Shown here: in pieces, positions 5,860 through 59,423 of the stretch
Layout: each line of letters opens with the position of its first letter
How positions within the stretch are numbered: the stretch's first letter is position 1
Assembly: GCA_947503575.1 (NCBI GenBank)
Contig: CANNDZ010000003.1
Location: forward strand, 223,100 to 282,717
DNA from: an uncultured Kordiimonas sp.
GTDB taxonomy: Bacteria > Pseudomonadota > Alphaproteobacteria > Sphingomonadales > Kordiimonadaceae
Length of the DNA: 59,618 nt
Direction: 5' to 3'
The notes under the pieces: generated by a model
Told to the model about the DNA's origin: nothing
The model's database searches: none
What the model saw: only the letters and a program-made list of their open reading frames with translations
Translations under genes and position numbers: made by a program

Positions 5860-6300
5860 TGTTGGTTACTCACGTAGGATTTACCACTGCGGGGCTTGCG
5901 CCTCCTCGTGTTGCCTTCGCTTCGCTTGTCCGTCAGCTCCGCTTTGCTTCGGCGCTTCGGCCGAACATAGGTTAAAATCCGTATCTCACGGCGACCAAAA
6001 AGTAAAACGCCCCACCCGGTAGGGCGAGAGTCTTGATCGTTGGTCTTGGGAGTAGGGTTTACCACTGCGGGGCTTACGCCTCCTCGTGTTGACCTGCGGG
6101 CTGTCGCCCTTGGTCCGAACAGTAGGTTTCAACACAACTACTCTCGTAATCAAAACGCAAAAAACCCCGCCACAAGGGCTGGGTTTTCTTGTTGGTTGCG
6201 GGAGTAGGATTAGTCTCACCACTTCGTGGTTCGTCATTCCGCTTCGCTACGCTTGCTCCATATGAACCTTTAACGGTTCAACTCCTACTACGCAGCCCAT
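5860..6300. repeat. Array of ~150-bp units with tRNA-fMet 3'-end remnants
   Basis: This stretch holds no convincing gene. It contains repeated modules made of a hairpin terminator, then the antisense acceptor/T-stem sequence of tRNA-fMet (ttggttgcgggagtaggat), then a GC-rich palindromic piece. Clear tRNA ends lie at 6041 (diverged, tggtcttgggagtaggg) and 6193. A third, complete one lies at 6342, listed separately. Spacing is about 150 bp (6041, 6193, 6342). A related, more degenerate unit covers about 5870-5985. Hairpins occur near 6013-6030 and 6157-6186. The same kind of array recurs at 22735-23212. Confidence 0.75.
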
Positions 6301-6333: not shown

Positions 6334-6341
6334 TGACTGTT

Positions 6342-42550: not shown

Positions 42551-43849
42551 TCAGGCAACTGACACTGCCTTAAAGCGAGACGGTGCTTCTTTCTCTGTCA
42601 GCACGGTGAAGGACAATTTGTTGAGAAGGCCGCGCAGGTGTTCGTTTGAAAGGTGTTGGTATCGTTCAGACGACTTCATCGACTTATGGTGTAAAGCGTC
42701 CATGATTTCTTTCTGGCCAGCGCCCATCATACTCAGATAACTCGCAGTGGTATGTCTTAGGTCATGCCAACGGAAGTCCTGAAGGCCTGCATCACGGATT
42801 GCATGATAAATTCGTCTCTTAAAATCAAACGGCTTTGTTCCATCTGTATTGTGAAACACCAGCGGTGAGTCAAATCGGCGCTCTTCATAAAGAATTTTAA
42901 GCACCTCAAATGCTTCTTTGGATATAGGCTTCAAGCGCGAGGATTTATCTTGCTTGGTGCTTTTCAGGTGCAGAACAGCCCTGTTCATATCAACGATCAC
43001 GATTGGGTGGTCGATAAGATCATTTTCTTCCCAAACCAGATGATTGGCCTCTGACATTCGTAAGCCCGTACCCAATTGGATAATGAACAGATAGTAAGCC
43101 CAGAGTGGGTTATTATCCTTAATCTGTGGCTTGTTCACTTGATCCAGCAAAGCATCGATGAGGCGAGGCAATTCATACGCTCGCGGAAACTTTCTTCTAG
43201 CTTCGGCTTGTTCTTTTTTGTTCAGTTCATCCCAATGCCATGCTTCATCTTCACCTGGCCATAGATGAAAGTGGTCAGACAAAAAGCGGTCACGCTCGTT
43301 GCTGAATTCAAGTTTCTTGATTTTTTGCAGAGGGTTCCTTGAAGCCCATTCCCATTCATTGATGACGACATTGTACAGAACGCCAAGTTGATCCATGTAA
43401 TGCTGAACAGTTTGTGGTGCTCTTAGCCTTATCGACCCGTCGCGATTGCGTTTAGGTGCGGGTTTTCCTGGTTTTGAATGACTGTAGAACGCTGGCTCTT
43501 TCAAGAGCTGATTGCGCAAACGAATGAGTTCCTCAGGTCTAATACTATCCATAAACCTGTCGCCAAGTCGTTCATCCCACCATTTCAAAAGATATAGTGT
43601 TCTTTGGAATGTACGCTTTGGCATACATTCTTCAATAAAGCGCTCAATGCATTCTGAAAGAGTATATTGTTTGTGTGTTTTTATCCCGGCCACGATCTTT
43701 TCAGATTGATGTTCCTGATCTCGTGCCCATAGCTTTGCATTTGATAGTGTGCGAAACGATTTAGAGTAAGGCTTTGCGCCTCTGATTTTTATTTCAGCTT
43801 TATATCGAACTTCGCCTTTCGATGTATGATACTTCCTGAAATATGCCAT
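42551..43849 (-). CDS. Tyrosine recombinase/phage-type integrase
   Basis: A 432-aa protein. The N-terminal arm- and core-binding domains occupy ~1-200. The catalytic domain has Arg264 (TGLRMSEA), His362-x-x-Arg365 (WHDLRHTTA), His387/388 (LHHKS) and nucleophile Tyr397 (SERYQHL). It lies internal to island C, directly beside the ABC-3C-like operon and the two-repeat protein, so it may have mobilised that cargo as a nested element. Paired ATGCGGAA repeats upstream (43938 and 44178) are candidate binding sites. Confidence 0.93.
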   Translation of the reverse strand: MAYFRKYHTSKGEVRYKAEIKIRGAKPYSKSFRTLSNAKLWARDQEHQSEKIVAGIKTHKQYTLSECIERFIEECMPKRTFQRTLYLLKWWDERLGDRFMDSIRPEELIRLRNQLLKEPAFYSHSKPGKPAPKRNRDGSIRLRAPQTVQHYMDQLGVLYNVVINEWEWASRNPLQKIKKLEFSNERDRFLSDHFHLWPGEDEAWHWDELNKKEQAEARRKFPRAYELPRLIDALLDQVNKPQIKDNNPLWAYYLFIIQLGTGLRMSEANHLVWEENDLIDHPIVIVDMNRAVLHLKSTKQDKSSRLKPISKEAFEVLKILYEERRFDSPLVFHNTDGTKPFDFKRRIYHAIRDAGLQDFRWHDLRHTTASYLSMMGAGQKEIMDALHHKSMKSSERYQHLSNEHLRGLLNKLSFTVLTEKEAPSRFKAVSVA

Positions 43850-50765: not shown

Positions 50766-51341
50766 ATGAAGAATGTATATTCACTCTACAATGCACAAGG
50801 CAAACGCCTGTATCTTACTCTTGATGAACGCAAGGCTTTCTTCGACACATCAAAAACCCAGCCTGACAAAGTAAAGACTCTCTGCCAACTGCTGTACTAC
50901 ACTGGCTGCCGTGTCAGCGAGGCGCTGAATCTAACTGCTGACCGAGTGGACATGGCTGGTGGTGAGATTGTCATTCAATCCCTAAAGAAACGCCGAACAA
51001 CACCGCATTACCGCCCCATACCTGTACCTATGTCATTTATGGAAGAGTTGGCCGCTGTACACGCCCTAAAAGCCGATGGTAGCGATAAACTGTGGAGCTG
51101 GTCTCGCTCGCAAGCATGGAGGCTCGTGAAGGCTACAATGGTAAAGGCTGACATTAATACCAGCATGCCTTACGGAACATGCAAGGGCTTACGTCACTCA
51201 TTTGGAATACATGCGGTAACGCACAACGTACCACTCAACGTGGTTCAATCACTCCTGGGACATGCTAATATGTCTACTACGGCTATCTATGTAGATGCTG
51301 TCGGAGATGAAAGGAGAGCTTTGGTTAGTCGGATGTGGTAA
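50766..51341 (+). CDS. Short tyrosine recombinase (catalytic-domain type)
   Basis: A 191-aa protein consisting mainly of the catalytic domain: Arg49 (TGCRVSEAL), a Lys in the beta hairpin (SLKKRRT), Arg143 in KGLRHSFG (the usual first His of HxxR is Lys), His166 (LLGHANMSTT) and Tyr175 (AIYVDAV). Short XerC/D-like proteins of this kind act as plasmid resolvases, invertases or stabilisers. Two 29-bp dyad sites lie just upstream (50642) and 1.8 kb further (48859). Confidence 0.88.
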   Translation: MKNVYSLYNAQGKRLYLTLDERKAFFDTSKTQPDKVKTLCQLLYYTGCRVSEALNLTADRVDMAGGEIVIQSLKKRRTTPHYRPIPVPMSFMEELAAVHALKADGSDKLWSWSRSQAWRLVKATMVKADINTSMPYGTCKGLRHSFGIHAVTHNVPLNVVQSLLGHANMSTTAIYVDAVGDERRALVSRMW

Positions 51342-51530: not shown

Positions 51531-52604
51531 ATGTTTCAGCACGGGTCAGACGTTAGTCAGTTTAACCTCTTCAAAGACAGCGGCGACAAAAAACCGCCTT
51601 TTGACTTCAATCAGATTCAGCGCGTCTCAATTCATGGTCAACAAACTGAGGTGACACCGGTTTTTTCGGCCTACTGGTACTTCGCGGCTGAGCGCCAGAG
51701 GGTTTTCTTCAAACGGTTCAAACAGGTAAATGATCCAAGACTGACGGACGACCCAATTATCTCGGCGTTTAAATTTACCAACGCCTACCGTGCTTCAGAT
51801 CGCGTCAGCCAATATCTCATAAGGAAGGTAATCTACGAAGAGGGGAAATCGTTTTGTGCTGAGGACACGTTTTTTAGGATCCTATTGTTTAAGTTGTTCA
51901 ATAAGATCGAGACATGGCAAGCCCTAGAAAATCGGGTTGGCGAAATAACACTTCGAAACTACAGCTTTACTCAATATGATCAGATTCTATCAGATGTGCG
52001 TGCATGTGGGGGAGCAATTTATTCGGCTGCGTACATCATGCCTTCCGCTGGTAGGGTCTTCAAAGAGAAATACAAGCATCAAAATCACCTTCGACTGATA
52101 GAAAGTCTTCTTGATCGGAATCTCCCCGAGAAACTGCAAGGACTGCAAGATATGGGAGAGGCATTTGATCTTATGCACAGCGTTCCGTCACTTGGAGCTT
52201 TTTTGGCTTATCAGTATGCTACTGACATAAACTACAGTGAGATCACAGACTTCAAAGAGGATGAATTTGTGGTCGCTGGTCCAGGTGCATTGGACGGGAT
52301 TTCTAAGTGCTTCAGAGAAGCCAAAAAATTTCAACCAGAGGTACTAATCCAGCACATGTACGAAAACCAAGAGAAATACTTTGACGAACTTGATTTGGAT
52401 TTTATGTCGTTGTGGGGGCGCCCATTGCAGTTAATTGACTGCCAAAGCCTATTCTGCGAAATCTCGAAATACTCGCGAGTAGCTTTTCCAGATGTTGCGG
52501 GTGTTTCCGGCCGAAAGAGAATTAAACAAAAGTACGTTGGTACAAATGATAAAATCCAGCCCTGGTATCCTCCCAAGTGGAATATCAATCAGTACATAAT
52601 TTGA
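51531..52604 (+). CDS. HMUDK-helical/aGPT-pyrophosphorylase-group protein
   Basis: A 357-aa protein. The block PVFSAYWYFAAERQRVFFKR, FTNAYRASDRVSQYLIRKV and FFRILLFKLFNKIETW (about 40-135) matches what I recall of the all-helical domain linked to hydroxymethyl-dU DNA kinases and the alpha-glutamyl/putrescinyl-thymine pyrophosphorylase clade of phage base-hypermodification systems. I see no P-loop, so it is not itself a classical kinase. It is convergent with the MazG/Nmad2 operon (3 bp apart), a typical partner set for nucleotide modification or conflict systems. ATG 51531 is used. The exact clade is uncertain. Confidence 0.72.
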   Translation: MFQHGSDVSQFNLFKDSGDKKPPFDFNQIQRVSIHGQQTEVTPVFSAYWYFAAERQRVFFKRFKQVNDPRLTDDPIISAFKFTNAYRASDRVSQYLIRKVIYEEGKSFCAEDTFFRILLFKLFNKIETWQALENRVGEITLRNYSFTQYDQILSDVRACGGAIYSAAYIMPSAGRVFKEKYKHQNHLRLIESLLDRNLPEKLQGLQDMGEAFDLMHSVPSLGAFLAYQYATDINYSEITDFKEDEFVVAGPGALDGISKCFREAKKFQPEVLIQHMYENQEKYFDELDLDFMSLWGRPLQLIDCQSLFCEISKYSRVAFPDVAGVSGRKRIKQKYVGTNDKIQPWYPPKWNINQYII

Positions 52605-52607
52605 CGT

Positions 52608-54260
52608 CTAGTCTTTGACGTCACTCAAAGCTAGGGCGGTGCAAGATACCTTGTCAGGTTCACTGGCAAATGACACACGATATGAGATCACCTTCTTGGC
52701 CCAAATCTTAGCCTGCAAGTTACCTTTCGCTGTGACACTGACGGTTTCTTCATCCAGAAAATGCAAACAAATCTGGAGGCGATCGCTAGCATTTGGTTTT
52801 CGATCAAGAACAGCTTCCATAATTGCGTCTGTTGCGGCATTCAGTTTTGCGCCTTGATCGCCGTCAGAGCTCACAGCGGTTCCTAGACCGACTACGCTAC
52901 CCTTTAAATTTACATGCGTGTGGGGAGTAAACGAATGCGAACGATTTACAAAATCTAGCTTGATAGTACCTTGCTTATGTACCTTGAGCTGATGGTATAA
53001 TTCCATCCCCTGAAATATGGCCGTAGACCACTCCCAAACCTTGCAAGCCCTGACCTCGAGGTCCTTGATGTACCGTTGGACGGTCTTGATAAGCTTGAAG
53101 GTAACGTGACTTTCTTCTGGGAAAAGTCTCACTGTTTCTGAATCACCTTCGTCTTCTCTTAAATCCGCTTGCCGCCGACCTTCAAAGTAGATGGCGCTGA
53201 TGATCTGTTCCTCGATGATTTTTGCTCGAGCCCCATCTTCCGCCTCGTCAACGACCTCGTCACTTTTTCTTTTTCGCCCCAAGAAGCTACGTAGGACTGG
53301 CGACCAACCCAAATAAACTGCGTTAGTAAGATGCAAAGCGTCATGGAAGCGATAACCATCTTTTTTCACTGAGTTGTCTGTGAGGTCATCTCCCAGTTGA
53401 GTCCCGTCGCAATACATTCTTGCTTGTCCTGGGCCGATACTGACAATCTGAATTGTTAGCTCGTCCGGAAACCTCTCTTTTTCGGGATACAGATATTGGC
53501 CTGGAAGTACGGCATGTTTAGCCCTATCAAACAATGGTGTGTGCTCTTTTTTGTCTGTAGAACGATACCTAGATTTGCGAACATTGAATTCAGCAATATC
53601 GCTCAATTTGGCATCATAAAGGCTGGCGATGGCTGACACATACCAAGCAATGTCACCCAAAAGCTTTGCTGGCTTATTCTTTCGTAACGAGGCCCCTTTC
53701 ACTGGAATAAAAGCCAGCTCCTTCTCTTCTTCCGGCAAGTACTCCCCAAGCAGAAGAGCTCCGATCTGCCACATCGAAGTGAGACAGACCTCCAACAAGA
53801 TTTTGCCTTCAGTTCTCGCCGTAACGAAGGCTAGGCTTTGATAGTCCTCAAAATGCATCCTCTGAGTGTTAGGAAACCCCTTTATGCCTTCAAAAAAGGA
53901 TGCTGTTTTTCCAGATCCGAGCAAGTCTTGTACGCTGGATGAGCGCTCATCATCGCTTGAAAGCTCGTGTTTCAAGAAGGCTATGTTCTGTGTGAAAATG
54001 TTAATTTCAGAAGAGAAAAGAACTTGGCTCAGAGCGAAGCAGTACCACATCACGTCCCCAAGTTCTTCTATGATCTCTTCGTTTCTTCCAAAAGCGCTCG
54101 TTTCACCATGTTCACCAAGTAGCTGCTTTTTGATGGCAGAAACCAGCGAGCCGATTTCCCCAATCAAACCGTAGAGAGCAATCTCTCTCTGCTCTTTCGT
54201 AGAACGGTCAGCGAATTGCAGCGTGTCTTTTACAAACTTATTGTATTCCGAAACTAACAT
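52608..54260 (-). CDS. Multi-domain MazG-like nucleotide pyrophosphohydrolase
   Basis: About 550 aa from ATG 54260, which follows GGAAGG; the frame is open to 54287. There are three helical MazG-type modules: residues ~15-70 (GLIGEIGSLVSAIKKQ ... EELGDVMWYCFALS), ~140-215 (TEGKILLEVCLTSMWQIGALL ... LLGDIAWYVSAIA), and ~320-390 (FHDALHLTNAVYLGWSPVL ... IIEEQIISAIYFEGR). The C-terminal ~170 residues have dsRBD-like and unknown segments. MazG domains hydrolyse (d)NTPs to monophosphates. Three in one chain, next to Nmad2, suggests handling of modified or alarm nucleotides. Confidence 0.78.
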   Translation of the reverse strand: MLVSEYNKFVKDTLQFADRSTKEQREIALYGLIGEIGSLVSAIKKQLLGEHGETSAFGRNEEIIEELGDVMWYCFALSQVLFSSEINIFTQNIAFLKHELSSDDERSSSVQDLLGSGKTASFFEGIKGFPNTQRMHFEDYQSLAFVTARTEGKILLEVCLTSMWQIGALLLGEYLPEEEKELAFIPVKGASLRKNKPAKLLGDIAWYVSAIASLYDAKLSDIAEFNVRKSRYRSTDKKEHTPLFDRAKHAVLPGQYLYPEKERFPDELTIQIVSIGPGQARMYCDGTQLGDDLTDNSVKKDGYRFHDALHLTNAVYLGWSPVLRSFLGRKRKSDEVVDEAEDGARAKIIEEQIISAIYFEGRRQADLREDEGDSETVRLFPEESHVTFKLIKTVQRYIKDLEVRACKVWEWSTAIFQGMELYHQLKVHKQGTIKLDFVNRSHSFTPHTHVNLKGSVVGLGTAVSSDGDQGAKLNAATDAIMEAVLDRKPNASDRLQICLHFLDEETVSVTAKGNLQAKIWAKKVISYRVSFASEPDKVSCTALALSDVKD

Positions 54261-54273
54261 GGTCACCTTCCAA

Positions 54274-54906
54274 TCATTCCCTGGCAATTATTCGTTGCCA
54301 GGCCGCAGGGTCTGCGCGAAACCCAAGCACCCCAAGCTCACCAAACCACTCTAAAATCGCTTCCCGTTTTTCGGTCGGAATTTTCTTTTTGAGGCCCGGC
54401 CCTTTTTTAACAATATCCCTTAGGTGCTCCGGGATCTCAGGCCCCGAGCCTCCCCAATAGGCAAACTCGTGGCCAAACAAAACGTTCTCTGTTTTTTGAG
54501 TGTCTCGGCGATAATTGTTTAGGTTTACCTGCCCATCCGGCAAACTGTGAAATGATAGAAGCTGGCTTAGCGGCACATCAGGATTGAGGGGATCTTCGCG
54601 GAAATAAATGTTGTCTCCATACTGTGCCATTAAAGAGCCATTTACATTGGGACGTTTTCTTTCAAATCGAGGATCTCGCCAGAACTCGTCGAAGGTAATA
54701 ATTCCATCCACCTTGAACCAATAGACTAAGCGAAAGTTGCTGCCATACTTTTTACTACCAGTCCCAATAATGAGGTCACCCTCGTTTGCTCGTTTGCGAA
54801 TATCTGGTTTGCAGCAGGCCAGTGTGCAGATTCCGTGGAAAGGGTTTGGCGCAAACCCCATGTCATGCTCGACTACATAGGAGTAAACGTCCATTTTAAA
54901 ACTCAC
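54274..54906 (-). CDS. Nucleotide modification-associated domain 2 (Nmad2) protein
   Basis: A 210-aa protein that matches my memory of the Nmad2 family along its length: DVYSYVVEHDMGFAPNPFHG, CTLACCKPDIRKRANEGD, IIGTGSKK, GIITFDEFWRDPRF and YGDNIYFRE. Conserved Cys and His in the first third may bind a nucleotide or metal. Nmad domains were predicted to act on modified nucleotides in phage and bacterial islands; no activity is established to my knowledge. The start is GTG at 54906 or ATG at 54894. It lies between the TIR-like and MazG genes in one operon. Confidence 0.82.
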   Translation of the reverse strand: MSFKMDVYSYVVEHDMGFAPNPFHGICTLACCKPDIRKRANEGDLIIGTGSKKYGSNFRLVYWFKVDGIITFDEFWRDPRFERKRPNVNGSLMAQYGDNIYFREDPLNPDVPLSQLLSFHSLPDGQVNLNNYRRDTQKTENVLFGHEFAYWGGSGPEIPEHLRDIVKKGPGLKKKIPTEKREAILEWFGELGVLGFRADPAAWQRIIARE

Positions 54907-54910
54907 TCAA

Positions 54911-55285
54911 CTAGCAGTCATGATGCCGCATTTTGAACCCGGAAGACGCGCCGGTCTCCTCAGTAGCCTCACACTTTGCGGCTAAGGCCAAGACGCTAGG
55001 CTTCCAGGGCGTTTTTTGGGCAAACTTTCTCAGCACTTCCGGGAGTTCGTCTGTGTTTGGTGGTGAAGGCCACAATGCAACAATGCACATGCCCCTATTC
55101 AGCGCTTCCTGGACAGTGGGCTCCAATGCAGCGTCTTGATGCAGTTCACTAGACACAACAACAATCAATGATCGCGCTTCCTGCCCTAGAGGCACAGGCG
55201 TGCAATCCGCTTCTGACAACAGAATGTCTAGTTTCGCTGGGTCGATCGCTTCAGCGTTTGGATTGTAAACATTTACAGGCGTCAA
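54911..55285 (-). CDS. Small TIR-like/Rossmann protein, unknown function
   Basis: A 124-aa protein starting at TTG 55285, 7 nt after GGAG. The central segment SLIVVVSSELHQDAALEPTV, followed by QEALNRGMCIVALWPS, resembles the core of TIR-type folds (strand, surface helix with Glu, strand), but the protein is short and the N-terminal strands are hard to place. It could equally be a nucleoside 2-deoxyribosyltransferase-like fold. It is the first gene of the operon with Nmad2 and MazG and divergent from the WYL regulator. If it is a TIR, it would be an NAD- or nucleotide-cleaving component. Confidence 0.55.
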   Translation of the reverse strand: MTPVNVYNPNAEAIDPAKLDILLSEADCTPVPLGQEARSLIVVVSSELHQDAALEPTVQEALNRGMCIVALWPSPPNTDELPEVLRKFAQKTPWKPSVLALAAKCEATEETGASSGFKMRHHDC

Positions 55286-55349
55286 TGGCTTGCTCCTATC
55301 TGAATAACTTTCTCCAGTGGTCAGCGCCCCGGCCAGCCTTTTTAACGCT

Positions 55350-55400
55350 TTGACAGAGAAAAATACGTATAGTAAATATACTGGTCATAAATAGTATACT
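55350..55400. promoter_or_regulatory. Promoter/operator region of WYL regulator and divergent operon
   Basis: TTGACA at 55350 with TAAATA 17 bp later forms a plausible rightward promoter. Overlapping it are an inverted repeat GTATA-GTAAA-TATAC (55367-55381) and the palindrome AGTATACT (55393-55400), within direct copies of an ATA..ACTsGTC pattern about 20 bp apart. This suits binding by a dimeric wHTH-WYL repressor. Confidence 0.5.
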
Positions 55401-55438
55401 CGTCAAGTTTTTACATAGGTATTGGTAGTATTTGCACA

Positions 55439-56308
55439 ATGGTTGGTAGCAAGAAAAAGTGGAGCGTCGAACAAAGGCTTGAATTCATTGAGTTTCGTTT
55501 GTTTTGGGAAGGTAGACTTCAGCGCCGCGATTTGACGGAGCAGTTTGGCATTTCAGTGCCTCAAGCCTCTAAAGACATTGCATTGTACAAAGAAACAGCG
55601 CCCCAAAACATGCAATACGATTCGAGTCTGAAGTCTTACATCGCGAATGATCCACTCAAGCCGATATTTTACGCGCCCAACCCAGAAAGATATCTCGCCC
55701 AACTCAGTGCGTTGAAGAAAGCGACGATATCGATAGAAGAAACATTATTTTCTACCATCACATCCGCTGACGTCTTGTCAGTACCAGGACGGCCAATAGC
55801 ACCCCACATTTTGAGAGCACTAAACTTCGCCATCAGAGAAAAGAACGCTATCAACGCCGAATACATTTCAATGAGCAAGTCCACCGGAGACAATTTTTGG
55901 AGATTCATCTCGCCGCACTCCTTCGCCTCAGATGGGCTAAGGTGGCATGTTCGCGCATATTGTCACGACAGCGAAAAGTTTAAGGATTTCGTAATATCTC
56001 GATTTTTAAATGTGGCCGAATTTGCTGACCCAAAAGCTTCCAAATTTGATGACCGCAATTGGAACAGTTTCTTATCAATTCATCTTATCCCAAACCCAGC
56101 TTTAACAGATATTCAGAAACAGGTCATCGAAAGTGACTTCGGAATGCAGAGTGGCAGACTCACCTTCAGAGTTCGACACGCGATGCTCTGGTATTTTGAT
56201 AAAGTCATGAGATTTGACATAGACCGGGACATGAACATTCCGAGGAAAACGCCTGTAGTCATTGAAAACGAAGATGAATATAAGAAATTGCTTCAACAAA
56301 TAACATGA
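55439..56308 (+). CDS. BrxR/CapW-like wHTH-WYL transcriptional regulator
   Basis: A 289-aa protein. The N-terminal winged HTH (about 8-60) has the pattern of defence-island WYL repressors (QRLEFIEFRLFWEGRLQRRD, LTEQFGISVPQASKDIALYK). A WYL domain spans about 125-200 and a C-terminal WCX-like segment about 210-289. Proteins of this type (BrxR, CapW) repress adjacent anti-phage operons and are thought to release on sensing a nucleotide or nucleic-acid ligand. Here it diverges from the TIR-like/Nmad2/MazG operon across a palindrome-bearing 153-bp gap. Confidence 0.85.
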   Translation: MVGSKKKWSVEQRLEFIEFRLFWEGRLQRRDLTEQFGISVPQASKDIALYKETAPQNMQYDSSLKSYIANDPLKPIFYAPNPERYLAQLSALKKATISIEETLFSTITSADVLSVPGRPIAPHILRALNFAIREKNAINAEYISMSKSTGDNFWRFISPHSFASDGLRWHVRAYCHDSEKFKDFVISRFLNVAEFADPKASKFDDRNWNSFLSIHLIPNPALTDIQKQVIESDFGMQSGRLTFRVRHAMLWYFDKVMRFDIDRDMNIPRKTPVVIENEDEYKKLLQQIT

Positions 56309-56466: not shown

Positions 56467-57855
56467 CTACTTCTTTAGCTCTTCAAATTTTGCTGCCATT
56501 GTAGGGTTTTTACGCGTCAGCTTCTTGATAGTAACGTCTTGGGCCTTATCGTTTGCGAGGCGCAGATTTCGATCGGTCCCAAGCAAAGCATCCTTTGTTT
56601 TTTGGAGATGATTTATTGACTTATCGATCTCGTCAATTGCTGTCTGGAATTTTCTTGACGCAAGATCGTAATTTTTAGAAAAGGCATTCTTAAACTGCTC
56701 AAGATCGCTTTCAAAATTCGTTATATCTATGCTTTGTTCTCTAACCATTGCCAGCTCAGTTTTATACTCAAGCGACTTCATGGCTGCATTTCGCAACAGC
56801 GTTATCATTGGTATAAAGAACTGTGGACGTATGACATACATTTTCGGGTAACGGTGGAACACGTCGACGATCCCAGAGTTGTAAAACTCACTTTCTGGCT
56901 CAAGCAAAGATACTAAGATTGCGTATTCACAGCCTTTCTCTTGGCGGTCTTTATCCAACTGTTTGAAAAAATCCTCATTCTTTTTCTTCGTTGAAGTAGT
57001 GTCGCTTTCATTTTTCATTTCAAACATAATTGAAACGACTTCAATGCCCGCCTCATCTGTATCGCGAAATATGTAATCCCCTTTGCTGCCAGTGGTAGCA
57101 TCGTTATCCTTCTCGAAATAAGCTCTAGGAAAGGCTGTAGAACGAATGCGATTAAACTCGGTTTCGCAGTGTTGCTCTAAAGTTTCGCCAACCATTTTGG
57201 TAGACAAACGAGCTTTCATGTCGCGCAAACGTTCTATCGCATCATCTCGGTCCTTTATCTGTATCTCGTATTTATCCCTAAGAGATTTCTCAGATAATTC
57301 CTTCTCAAGCTTCGCTTGCTCTAGACCACTCTTCAAAGTGTCACGCTCTTTCTCGATCTCACTTACAGCCTTTGAGATCGCGAGTTCCTGCTCAACTTTT
57401 CTTGCTTCAAGACTTGATTTTAGCTGCAGGATTTCAGCATCCTTACTTGCCAATATACTTTGTCGCTCTTCTGAATTTTTTGATTTTTCTAAAGTTAGAG
57501 CATTCTGGTTTTCTTGTTTGATTTTTTCTAATTCGTTTGTAAGCGCATCTCGCTCTTTCTCTACGGCCTTTAAAGCCTCCGCGACTGCGAGTTTTTGAGA
57601 AACCTCACCGGCATCCAATTTAGCTTTCAAATCATGTATCTCAGCATCTTTGTCAGCAATATTTTTCTGATTTTCATGAGCAATTTTACTCCTAGCAAGC
57701 TCGACTGCATCTTGCTTCTCCTTCTCTGCCAGAATTAGCCGTTCTTGCAACTGTTGCTCAAACTCTTTGTCATGAACCTGTTTGAGAATACTTGCGTACC
57801 CAGCTTCATCCACTTTAAATGCTGTATTGCAATGTGGGCACGTGATGTCATTCAT
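56467..57855 (-). CDS. DUF2130-family protein with coiled coil and nuclease-like domain
   Basis: A 462-aa protein. The N-terminal zinc-ribbon-like start is [20 protein letters not shown] coiled coil of ~170 residues follows ([18 protein letters not shown] and related repeats). The C-terminal DUF2130 domain (about 210-400) has [20 protein letters not shown] and EMKNESD, an arrangement compatible with a PD-(D/E)xK-type fold (E..ExK). The family is widespread in islands and unstudied. It is a monocistronic gene between the WYL regulator and the island integrase. Confidence 0.85.
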
Positions 57856-57991: not shown

Positions 57992-59197
57992 CTATTGTGT
58001 TTTTCCTGCCTTCTTCCTCCTGACATTCACCAAACTAGCATCAATCATGTCCTTGAGGTGCGCAGCATAGTGTTTTTCAATCATCTCTACGCTGGTGCGG
58101 CAGTTTTTGGCGACTTGGTAGATGTCGGCTCCCTCCAAGAGCCGGAAGCATATATAGCTATGTCGCAAGCTGTAGGCCGTCCGGGCTTTCCCGTTACGGT
58201 CAAACTTCAGCTTCTGCTTGTGAAGGATGCCGTTCAGCATCTTTTTAAAATCTGATGGGAACAAACGATCCGTCTGTTCGGGATTATTTCTTTTCAGCAT
58301 GCGCTCATATGGGCGCACCGCCCCCGGCATGCTTTTGCAGTAGCCAACACCGCGTTTACCGCGCACTTCAATTTCAAGAATAGTCTCGCCAGTAGCTTCG
58401 TCGTCGACAATCTCTATGTCCCTATACTCAAGGCGCTTAGCTTCATCTGGCCTAAGGCCAGTGTTTGCCATCAAAAGCACATAGTCATGGAGTTGCTCCG
58501 CATACCATTTATAGCGAGGGTTTTTAGGGTTTGCGGCATTCGCTCTGGTCGCTTCATAAAACTGTTTATATTCTTTGGGAGTGAACCAAGGCCGATGTTC
58601 TACCTTACTTTGCCGACGATAGGGGTCAGAGAGGTCTGGGATGAAGTCTATCCAGCCGTGCCGCTGTGCTGTCTTTAAGACCATGGATAAGGTCACAATC
58701 TCATTATGAATGGTATTGCGCGCCGGTGGCTTCCATGGCTTGGGCTCCAGCTTGTCATCGTCGAAGTGTTCTACGTCCCAGTTTTTGGGCTTGGTCATGC
58801 GGTGTACGCGGTATTCCTGACCTACACCTGATGTAATTTCTTTAAGTGACTTACTCCCAAGGAACGGAAGTAGATGCAGGCGAAGCCTGTCTTTATGGCC
58901 TTGCACCCATTTAGGACTTCTACGGCCATGGGTAGTTACTTCGTATTCTTTTTCAAAAACTCTGGCAGCCTCTCGAAAGGTTTTGCCAGAGGATAGTTCC
59001 CCAAAACGGTCCTTATTCAGGAGCTCCATGTACCAGTCCTGCGCAACATCTTTTGCGGCTTTCAAACTCTCTTGCTTGGTACTGGTGCGATATTGCTTTC
59101 CTTTAACAGAGGCAGAGCAATGCCATCTGGAACTGTTGGGGCGGCGATAAAGGGCAACCTTATCGCCCAAAATCTTATGTTGGACTCCGTTTGACAC
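57992..59197 (-). CDS. Tyrosine integrase of island C (tRNA-fMet-targeting)
   Basis: About 401 aa. The frame opens at TTG 59203, but GGGGAG sits 8 nt before GTG 59197, which is preferred. The catalytic domain (numbered from TTG 59203) has Arg251 (NTGLRPDEA), Lys in RGKRGV, Arg347-His348 (YSLRHSY) and nucleophile Tyr379 (EKHYAAH). It lies 144 bp from the 3' end of the intact tRNA-fMet, the usual position of an integrase beside its target tRNA. It is therefore the best candidate for having generated the tRNA 3' remnants at 29328 and perhaps the earlier ones. Confidence 0.92.
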   Translation of the reverse strand: MSNGVQHKILGDKVALYRRPNSSRWHCSASVKGKQYRTSTKQESLKAAKDVAQDWYMELLNKDRFGELSSGKTFREAARVFEKEYEVTTHGRRSPKWVQGHKDRLRLHLLPFLGSKSLKEITSGVGQEYRVHRMTKPKNWDVEHFDDDKLEPKPWKPPARNTIHNEIVTLSMVLKTAQRHGWIDFIPDLSDPYRRQSKVEHRPWFTPKEYKQFYEATRANAANPKNPRYKWYAEQLHDYVLLMANTGLRPDEAKRLEYRDIEIVDDEATGETILEIEVRGKRGVGYCKSMPGAVRPYERMLKRNNPEQTDRLFPSDFKKMLNGILHKQKLKFDRNGKARTAYSLRHSYICFRLLEGADIYQVAKNCRTSVEMIEKHYAAHLKDMIDASLVNVRRKKAGKTQ

Positions 59198-59310
59198 TGT
59201 CAACTCTCCCCAAATGAGCGTGACTGCGATAGATGTGCTAAGTGTGTTGGAACTGTGTTAGCGATTTAAGGCTACGTTCTTGGGATTCGGGCTGTAAACA
59301 GGAAAATAAA

Positions 59311-59346: not shown

Positions 59347-59423
<77 letters not shown>

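Follow-up and report, generated by a model that had tools for sequence, protein, structure and literature searches.

A mobile TIR-Nmad2-MazG cassette with one of two glycosylase-type genes, a possible immunity against modified bases

Host answers to thymine-hypermodifying phages are only partly known, and glycosylase immunity is a recent find. The present work concerns a cassette coding for a TIR-like, an Nmad2, a MazG-MazG_C and an HMUDK_hel protein, found in a 59,618-nucleotide stretch (the window) at the end of contig CANNDZ010000003.1 of an uncultured Kordiimonas sp. (GCA_947503575.1). These domains are said to have been described first in Iyer 2013 and Burroughs 2015, and we know of no tested function in cells for Nmad2, MazG_C or HMUDK_hel. 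With at least 558 Nmad2 relatives in species genomes, the cassette would make such a host answer directly testable and would assign a function to these three Pfam families. Among the closest described systems, the Brig enzymes show that glycosylases of the uracil-DNA glycosylase (UDG) type can defend through base excision (PMC13160076). As far as its accessible text goes, DefensePredictor (PMC13092281, 2026) validated systems in E. coli in which a 5-hydroxymethyluracil kinase domain and a thymidylate synthase (TS) occur; the same legend gives NMAD, dNMP (deoxynucleoside monophosphate) kinase and metallophosphatase, while aGPT-Pplase, MazG, MazG-C (labelled a predicted nucleotide kinase) and UDG appear, again with NMAD, in predicted systems without a test. 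On the phage side, the M6-type cassette, as listed in the part of the source available, includes aGPT-Pplase1 (PMC9476957).

The first-pass annotation of the window had held that no described system has this combination of genes, which was too strong because DefensePredictor, in its accessible text, had already predicted or validated overlapping domains and names several of them. The four-gene cassette itself was not described in any of the papers listed in the literature searched, which covered few subscription papers, and no paper joining TIR domain, MazG, uracil-DNA glycosylase and anti-phage defense was found there.

Composition and recurrence of the cassette

The window genes are one version of a cassette that is spread over many bacterial groups and shares parts with known and predicted defences. 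The five open reading frames (ORFs) claimed in the first-pass annotation were all confirmed at their coordinates by an ORF check of the window (Table 1). Three of them form a minus-strand operon, transcribed in the order TIR-like, Nmad2 and MazG-MazG_C; the HMUDK_hel gene is convergent with the MazG-MazG_C gene, and a WYL regulator gene is divergent from the TIR-like gene.

Recurrence was followed through Nmad2. A scan of species genomes with the Nmad2 alignment gave at least 558 stretches with a relative, and the best 80 of 558 were combined with 8 of 15 plasmid hits into a set of 88 loci, some of which end at contig ends; being the best of 558, the 80 genome loci favour close relatives. Membership, linkage and mutual exclusion were computed from ORFs read stop to stop without gene calling, with profiles built from the window and its relatives; each single-linkage cluster of neighbours was labelled after one to three of its members. 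By profile search, a TIR gene was present in 86 of the 88 loci, MazG-MazG_C in 64, a UDG-family gene in 41 and HMUDK_hel in 40. Either UDG or HMUDK_hel was found in 80 loci, with both solely in L069 and neither in eight. In 83/87 loci, the TIR gene immediately precedes Nmad2 and shares its strand (L065, where Nmad2 and MazG lie in one frame, was not counted). The firmest link is that of MazG-MazG_C with a glycosylase-type gene: UDG lies within 300 bp of MazG in 39/39 loci with both, and HMUDK_hel does so in 18 of 25, with 11 convergent as in the window.

A second sample, of 385 genomes of the window's class, was assessed with Fisher tests that ignore relatedness. MazG_C and Nmad2 were each detected in 13 genomes, nine of them in common (p 1e-12), and six of the eight genomes with HMUDK_hel also had MazG_C (p 1e-8). 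Of the 15 MazG_C loci in this sample, among them the window's own, nine have UDG and the other six HMUDK_hel in the short stretch around them, and none has both. HMUDK_hel, MazG_C, Nmad2 and TIR recur together elsewhere, as the first-pass annotation had supposed; of the Nmad2-MazG-WYL neighbourhood that it proposed, the MazG part stands (64/88 Nmad2 loci) but the WYL part does not (1/88).

Some observations weigh against a tight unit. In stretches of 2.0-3.9 kb, no partner was found for 6 of the 14 Nmad2 places in the class sample (L032-L037, weaker matches and some at contig ends) or for 2 of the 8 HMUDK_hel places (L044, L045), and the plasmid Nmad2 locus L024 has no cassette partner at all. 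The shares given for the 88 loci therefore apply to close relatives, whereas more distant family members occur in other settings, and distant Nmad2 genes often stand alone.

Among phages, HMUDK_hel relatives occur in 439 of 50,697 records, 91 of them matching over at least 80% of the query, and one neighbours thymidylate synthase and glucosyltransferase genes; no Nmad2 relative was found in the same 50,697 records. Nine IMG/VR viral contigs carry an Nmad2 relative, five of them with cassette partners (L130, L132, L133, L135, L136), and the profile hits of L130 are identical in kind and place to those of plasmid locus L018.

Table 1. Features of the cassette and its surroundings, in window coordinates
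Feature	Position	Strand	Evidence
HMUDK_hel protein (PF18723; aGPT-Pplase1-like), 357 aa; predicted base-flipping enzyme with helix-hairpin-helix (HhH) DNA-glycosylase fold	51531..52604	+	Pfam, model
MazG + MazG_C nucleotide pyrophosphohydrolase, 559 aa; inter-module insertion, ~100 unassigned C-terminal residues	52608..54287	-	Pfam, conserved residues
Nmad2, 210 aa, predicted YTH/ASCH-type reader	54274..54906	-	Pfam, model
Shortened ThsB-type pseudo-TIR, 124 aa	54911..55285	-	PADLOC ThsB, alignment, tail survey
Divergent intergenic region, presumed regulator binding site	55286..55438	.	11-nt direct repeat
CapW/BrxR-type WYL regulator, 289 aa; occasional part	55439..56308	+	CapW/BrxR homology
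Tyrosine recombinase of the carrier element (context)	57992..59203	-	Pfam Phage_integrase, E 1.9e-5, 24.9 bits (cut-off 27.1); adjoins tRNA-Met
tRNA-Met, probable integration site (context)	59347..59423	-	ARAGORN; 3'-end fragment repeats

Predicted activities of the encoded proteins

The HMUDK_hel protein matches its Pfam family at E 5.7e-99 over residues 42-323 of 357. The label HMUDK-like from the first-pass annotation holds for this helical domain but not for the kinase, as HMUDK_hel was the sole domain in the Pfam scan and a P-loop kinase domain was absent; kinase activity was rejected on this result, as was the identification as a 5-hydroxymethyldeoxyuridine (5-hmdU) DNA kinase (HMUDK), of which the helical domain alone is present. 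Matches to viral aGPT-Pplase/HMUDK models reach down to E 6.9e-14, and several of these models are named 5-hmdU DNA kinase (helical domain) or Pplase1. The protein belongs to the aGPT-Pplase1/HMUDK_hel family, with the helical domain common to the phage enzymes. In the structural model (pLDDT 92), the HMUDK_hel-matching part is almost entirely helical, and all 50 of the 50 listed VIA matches were DNA glycosylases or PUGT, a phage glycinyltransferase. The overall fold predicted by the model resembles that of HhH DNA glycosylases. The invariant Glu243 stands 21 residues past glycine 222, a spacing by which it may correspond to the HhH catalytic Asp. The HMUDK_hel profile gave only chance-level matches to Protein Data Bank (PDB) sequences. 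Stand-alone HMUDK_hel proteins carry the public annotation "nucleotide kinase domain-containing protein", a name on which a glycosylase-like reading would cast doubt. On an Acinetobacter plasmid (L126, 5971-6926), the HMUDK_hel gene is in two pieces and looks broken.

For the MazG-MazG_C protein, Pfam gave one MazG_C match (E 7.8e-54) and one MazG match (E 3.7e-6), with a weak partial match of 29 residues between them (E 8e-4); the three MazG modules announced in the first-pass annotation were not upheld. Residues E44, E74, E75, D78, D310, H315, D316, H319, E359 and E360 are kept in 62-64 of 64 aligned sequences, the window's included. The first four presumably form the metal-binding acidic motif of MazG, and their conservation is consistent with a functional motif of this kind. 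The whole protein had only chance-level matches to PDB sequences, the best at E 0.23. The identity of Nmad2, as first annotated, was upheld by Pfam (E 2e-60). Its model resembles YTH/ASCH nucleic-acid readers in the structure comparison, which points to the fold of the YTH/ASCH/EVE (PUA-like) group and to a predicted reader role; the Nmad2 profile also matched PDB sequences at chance level only. C27 and C32 of Nmad2 are conserved. At 8986-11325 of L065, Nmad2 and MazG seem to share a single frame without a break. A fusion of this kind, if real, would favour the two proteins acting as direct partners; in the close relative L067 the frames are separate.

The 124-aa protein gave a sole and weak match to the PADLOC ThsB TIR model (E 7.5e-4), and a TIR profile including its relatives finds the window gene in place with 38 bits, in agreement with its first description as TIR-like. 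Thr57 aligns with the position of the catalytic Glu. Judged by its alignment, the protein is a ThsB-type TIR of reduced length that lacks the catalytic glutamate but retains the C-terminal cysteine of its family. In a tail survey of 89 TIR ORFs, which include partial ones such as L052 in two pieces, this cysteine was kept in 81, and the catalytic-Glu motif was found in 52 by a pattern that two high-scoring TIRs (L075, L110) do not match either. To keep a TIR domain for its C-terminal cysteine and not for its active site would be uncommon.

Relatives' TIRs fall in PADLOC model PDLC00418; that of L022 matches the ThsB model over its full length (E 4e-90), and a SIR2-STALD protein adjoins the cassette there. 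Of the 50 loci whose TIR is intact, 32 have an ORF of the TIR/SLOG cluster (63 ORFs, three of them checked with Pfam) nearby, versus none of the 36 without the Glu motif. Loss of the motif maps mostly to one clade that contains the window (support 87), in a quick tree with 34 of 84 inner forks open; independent changes on this tree are too few for a test of the link between an intact TIR and a TIR/SLOG neighbour. Most simply, the window's clade shed a signalling branch and kept the core. A Pfam scan of eight proteins at 50.7-59.2 kb found neither ThsA (SIR2-SLOG) nor a comparable effector, the genome beyond not having been searched.

Proposed function and alternative explanations

An anti-phage role for the cassette is quite probable, and there is about an even chance that it is aimed at modified pyrimidines. 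The reading we prefer, at slightly short of even confidence, is a mobile modified-base immunity that combines a reader, nucleotide clean-up and base attack against modified pyrimidine bases. The Nmad2 reader, together with and possibly in contact with the cysteine-tailed TIR encoded just upstream, would recognise modified bases or nucleotides that an infecting phage makes. MazG-MazG_C would hydrolyse the modified deoxynucleoside triphosphates (dNTPs), and HMUDK_hel here, or a UDG-family glycosylase elsewhere, would flip the modified base from phage DNA and excise or alter it, with the result that replication of the phage DNA fails. Many relatives have an intact TIR that probably, in addition, produces a nucleotide signal to which a TIR/SLOG effector next to it responds. 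Since the TIR of the window's clade lacks the catalytic glutamate and no effector was found nearby, the core of reader, pyrophosphatase and glycosylase-like enzyme must act there without TIR signalling. The first-pass suggestion that the locus guards against hypermodified phage DNA fits the predicted folds. A bolder version, which we consider doubtful, is that two unrelated base-flipping enzymes, one a glycosylase of the UDG type and the other a phage hypermodification enzyme with HhH-glycosylase fold that bacteria have domesticated, serve as interchangeable warheads coupled to the YTH/ASCH-type reader through a TIR whose C-terminal cysteine tail, not catalysis, is essential, being tethered or transferred to a partner. 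If true, bacteria would be turning the phages' own thymine-hypermodification enzyme on phage DNA.

The cassette could instead work by Thoeris-like signalling, in which the TIR makes an NAD-derived messenger sensed by Nmad2, MazG and the glycosylase-like enzyme are accessory, and a neighbouring TIR/SLOG or SIR2 protein is the effector. The full-length fit of relatives' TIRs to the ThsB model, the TIR/SLOG-cluster ORF near 32 of 88 loci and the SIR2-STALD neighbour in L022 speak for it; however, the Glu motif is missing in the window TIR and in 36 of 86 TIR-bearing relatives, none of these 36 with a TIR/SLOG neighbour, so signalling cannot be the shared core function and we judge this explanation unlikely. 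Nucleotide depletion is also a known defence strategy, and 62-64 of 64 sequences keep the motif residues of MazG and MazG_C, as expected if a triggered MazG-MazG_C destroyed the dNTPs of the infected cell in an abortive response, with the glycosylase-like enzyme supplying only the trigger. Against this, MazG was not found in 24 of the 88 loci, whereas UDG or HMUDK_hel is missing from only eight, which makes abortive depletion a rather poor candidate.

A sanitising pyrophosphatase with a glycosylase is a classical repair pairing, and the pyrophosphatase and base-excision pair might sanitise oxidised or misincorporated pyrimidines, such as 5-hydroxymethyl-dUTP, with no role in defence. A mycobacterial MazG is reported, in the accessible part of the source, to clean up a damaged dNTP (PMC3855555). 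Repair nevertheless sits badly with the patchy occurrence of MazG_C and Nmad2, each detected in 13 of the 385 class genomes, with the cassette's presence on plasmids and, for the window copy, in a mobile island, and with its ThsB-type TIR partner, its CapW/BrxR regulator and the patatin, SIR2 or TIR neighbours at some loci; we regard it as improbable. Hardly better are the prospects of DNA modification, in which HMUDK_hel would conjugate a group to a base supplied by thymidylate-synthase-like partners, either to mark the cell's own DNA or to poison that of the phage. Its resemblance to the phage aGPT-Pplase1 family would agree with this, as would the TS-type, dTMP-kinase-type and (in L018) radical SAM neighbours that mirror the phage M6-type cassette as far as the source lists it (PMC9476957). 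However, ORF clustering gave no TS-type ORF in 72 of the 88 loci. The slot is moreover taken by a UDG-family protein in 41 of 88, and known UDG-family members remove bases.

Regulation, carrier and comparison with known systems

The WYL protein matches Pfam WYL at E 1.3e-8, the CapW structure 7tb6 at E 8.9e-53 (residues 4-286 of 289) and the BrxR structure 7t8k at E 2.1e-39 (residues 7-256), alignments by which it is a near full-length CapW/BrxR homologue. The regulator type given in the first-pass annotation was thus borne out, but not a place in the conserved cassette, since a WYL gene stands beside only one of 88 other loci (L115, a Colwellia metagenome-assembled genome, likewise divergent from the TIR gene); WYL was therefore rejected as a core part. 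The protein may control the operon by binding in the divergent intergenic region. The palindromes reported there were not recovered: no inverted repeat (arms of at least 8 nt, spacing up to 60 nt) was found in 55280-55460, which holds instead one 11-nt direct repeat at 55377 and 55395 (TATACTGGTCA/TATACTCGTCA), and no sigma-70-type promoter was found at 55200-55550.

The cassette lies near the tyrosine recombinase adjoining tRNA-Met, and the surrounding stretch also encodes a relaxase and two conjugative coupling proteins. A 17-nt piece of the tRNA-Met 3' end has nine copies in the genome, seven of them in the window on one strand; the window copies (at least 17 nt) are at 6192, 6341, 22835, 23018, 23162, 29240 and 59346, and, apart from the tRNA gene itself, those at 6341 and 23162 extend ~30 nt further into the tRNA sequence. 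This looks like serial integration of elements at tRNA-Met, and the last interval, with presumed bounds of ~29.24-59.34 kb, contains the cassette. Two more tyrosine recombinases lie in this 30-kb stretch (50766-51341 and 42551-43849). The DUF2130 gene (56467-57855) had no phmmer match at E 1e-6 in the 88 loci and was rejected as a cassette part.

Other neighbours vary among the relatives. ORF clustering placed thymidylate-synthase-type ORFs near 16 cassettes, 15 of them of the HMUDK type, and dTMP-kinase-type ORFs near six. ORFs related to L079 3210-3725 occur in 23 of 88 loci; their representative has no Pfam or NCBIfam match, and their counterparts in L017 and L099 are larger and of the patatin type. 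A Rhizobium plasmid (L128, 1741-6058) carries a shorter variant with helix-turn-helix (HTH), ImmA, thymidylate synthase, HMUDK_hel and MazG, where the profiles found neither Nmad2 nor TIR. Extended versions in L099, L101 and L119 have thymidylate-synthase, second TS-like, dTMP-kinase, metallophosphoesterase, ImmA and HTH type ORFs. The domains TS, dNMPk, 5hmdUk, NMAD and MPP of these three loci are those of the DefensePredictor legend, as far as the accessible text gives it, and they may represent the same system. When the HMUDK_hel gene of one relative served as query in a distant DNA search, 20,395 E. coli records gave no match, and the cassette UDG matched only 4zbx among PDB sequences (E 0.15).

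As far as the searches go, three features are new: the slot for one of two glycosylase-type genes, an HMUDK_hel protein with a glycosylase-like fold in the setting of cellular defence, and a TIR without catalytic Glu yet with a conserved C-terminal cysteine. Relatives' TIRs share the PADLOC ThsB model PDLC00418 with Thoeris and some loci have SIR2 or SLOG neighbours, whereas the window TIR lacks the catalytic Glu and has no ThsA-type effector beside it; to our knowledge, glycosylase-fold and MazG genes are not Thoeris parts. The window regulator matches the solved CapW and BrxR but presumably controls a cassette other than CBASS or BREX. The model fold of the HMUDK_hel protein is similar to that of phage thymine hypermodification enzymes (aGPT-Pplase1, PUGT and the HMUDK of SP10), although the window protein is cellular, stand-alone, placed beside a TIR-Nmad2-MazG operon and replaceable by UDG. 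The DefensePredictor systems, some validated in E. coli and others predicted, have a domain list that overlaps that of the cassette, but the word TIR is absent from the main text and the comparison is by domain names, not gene order (PMC13092281). In Brig1, Brig2 and Brig3, according to the available text, a UDG-superfamily enzyme excises modified phage bases, and 41 of the 88 relatives likewise have a UDG-family gene; however, the partner of Brig3 is the deglucosylase BapA, the words TIR and MazG are absent from the main text (PMC13160076), and the window slot holds HMUDK_hel, with an HhH-type model fold, in place of a UDG-superfamily glycosylase.

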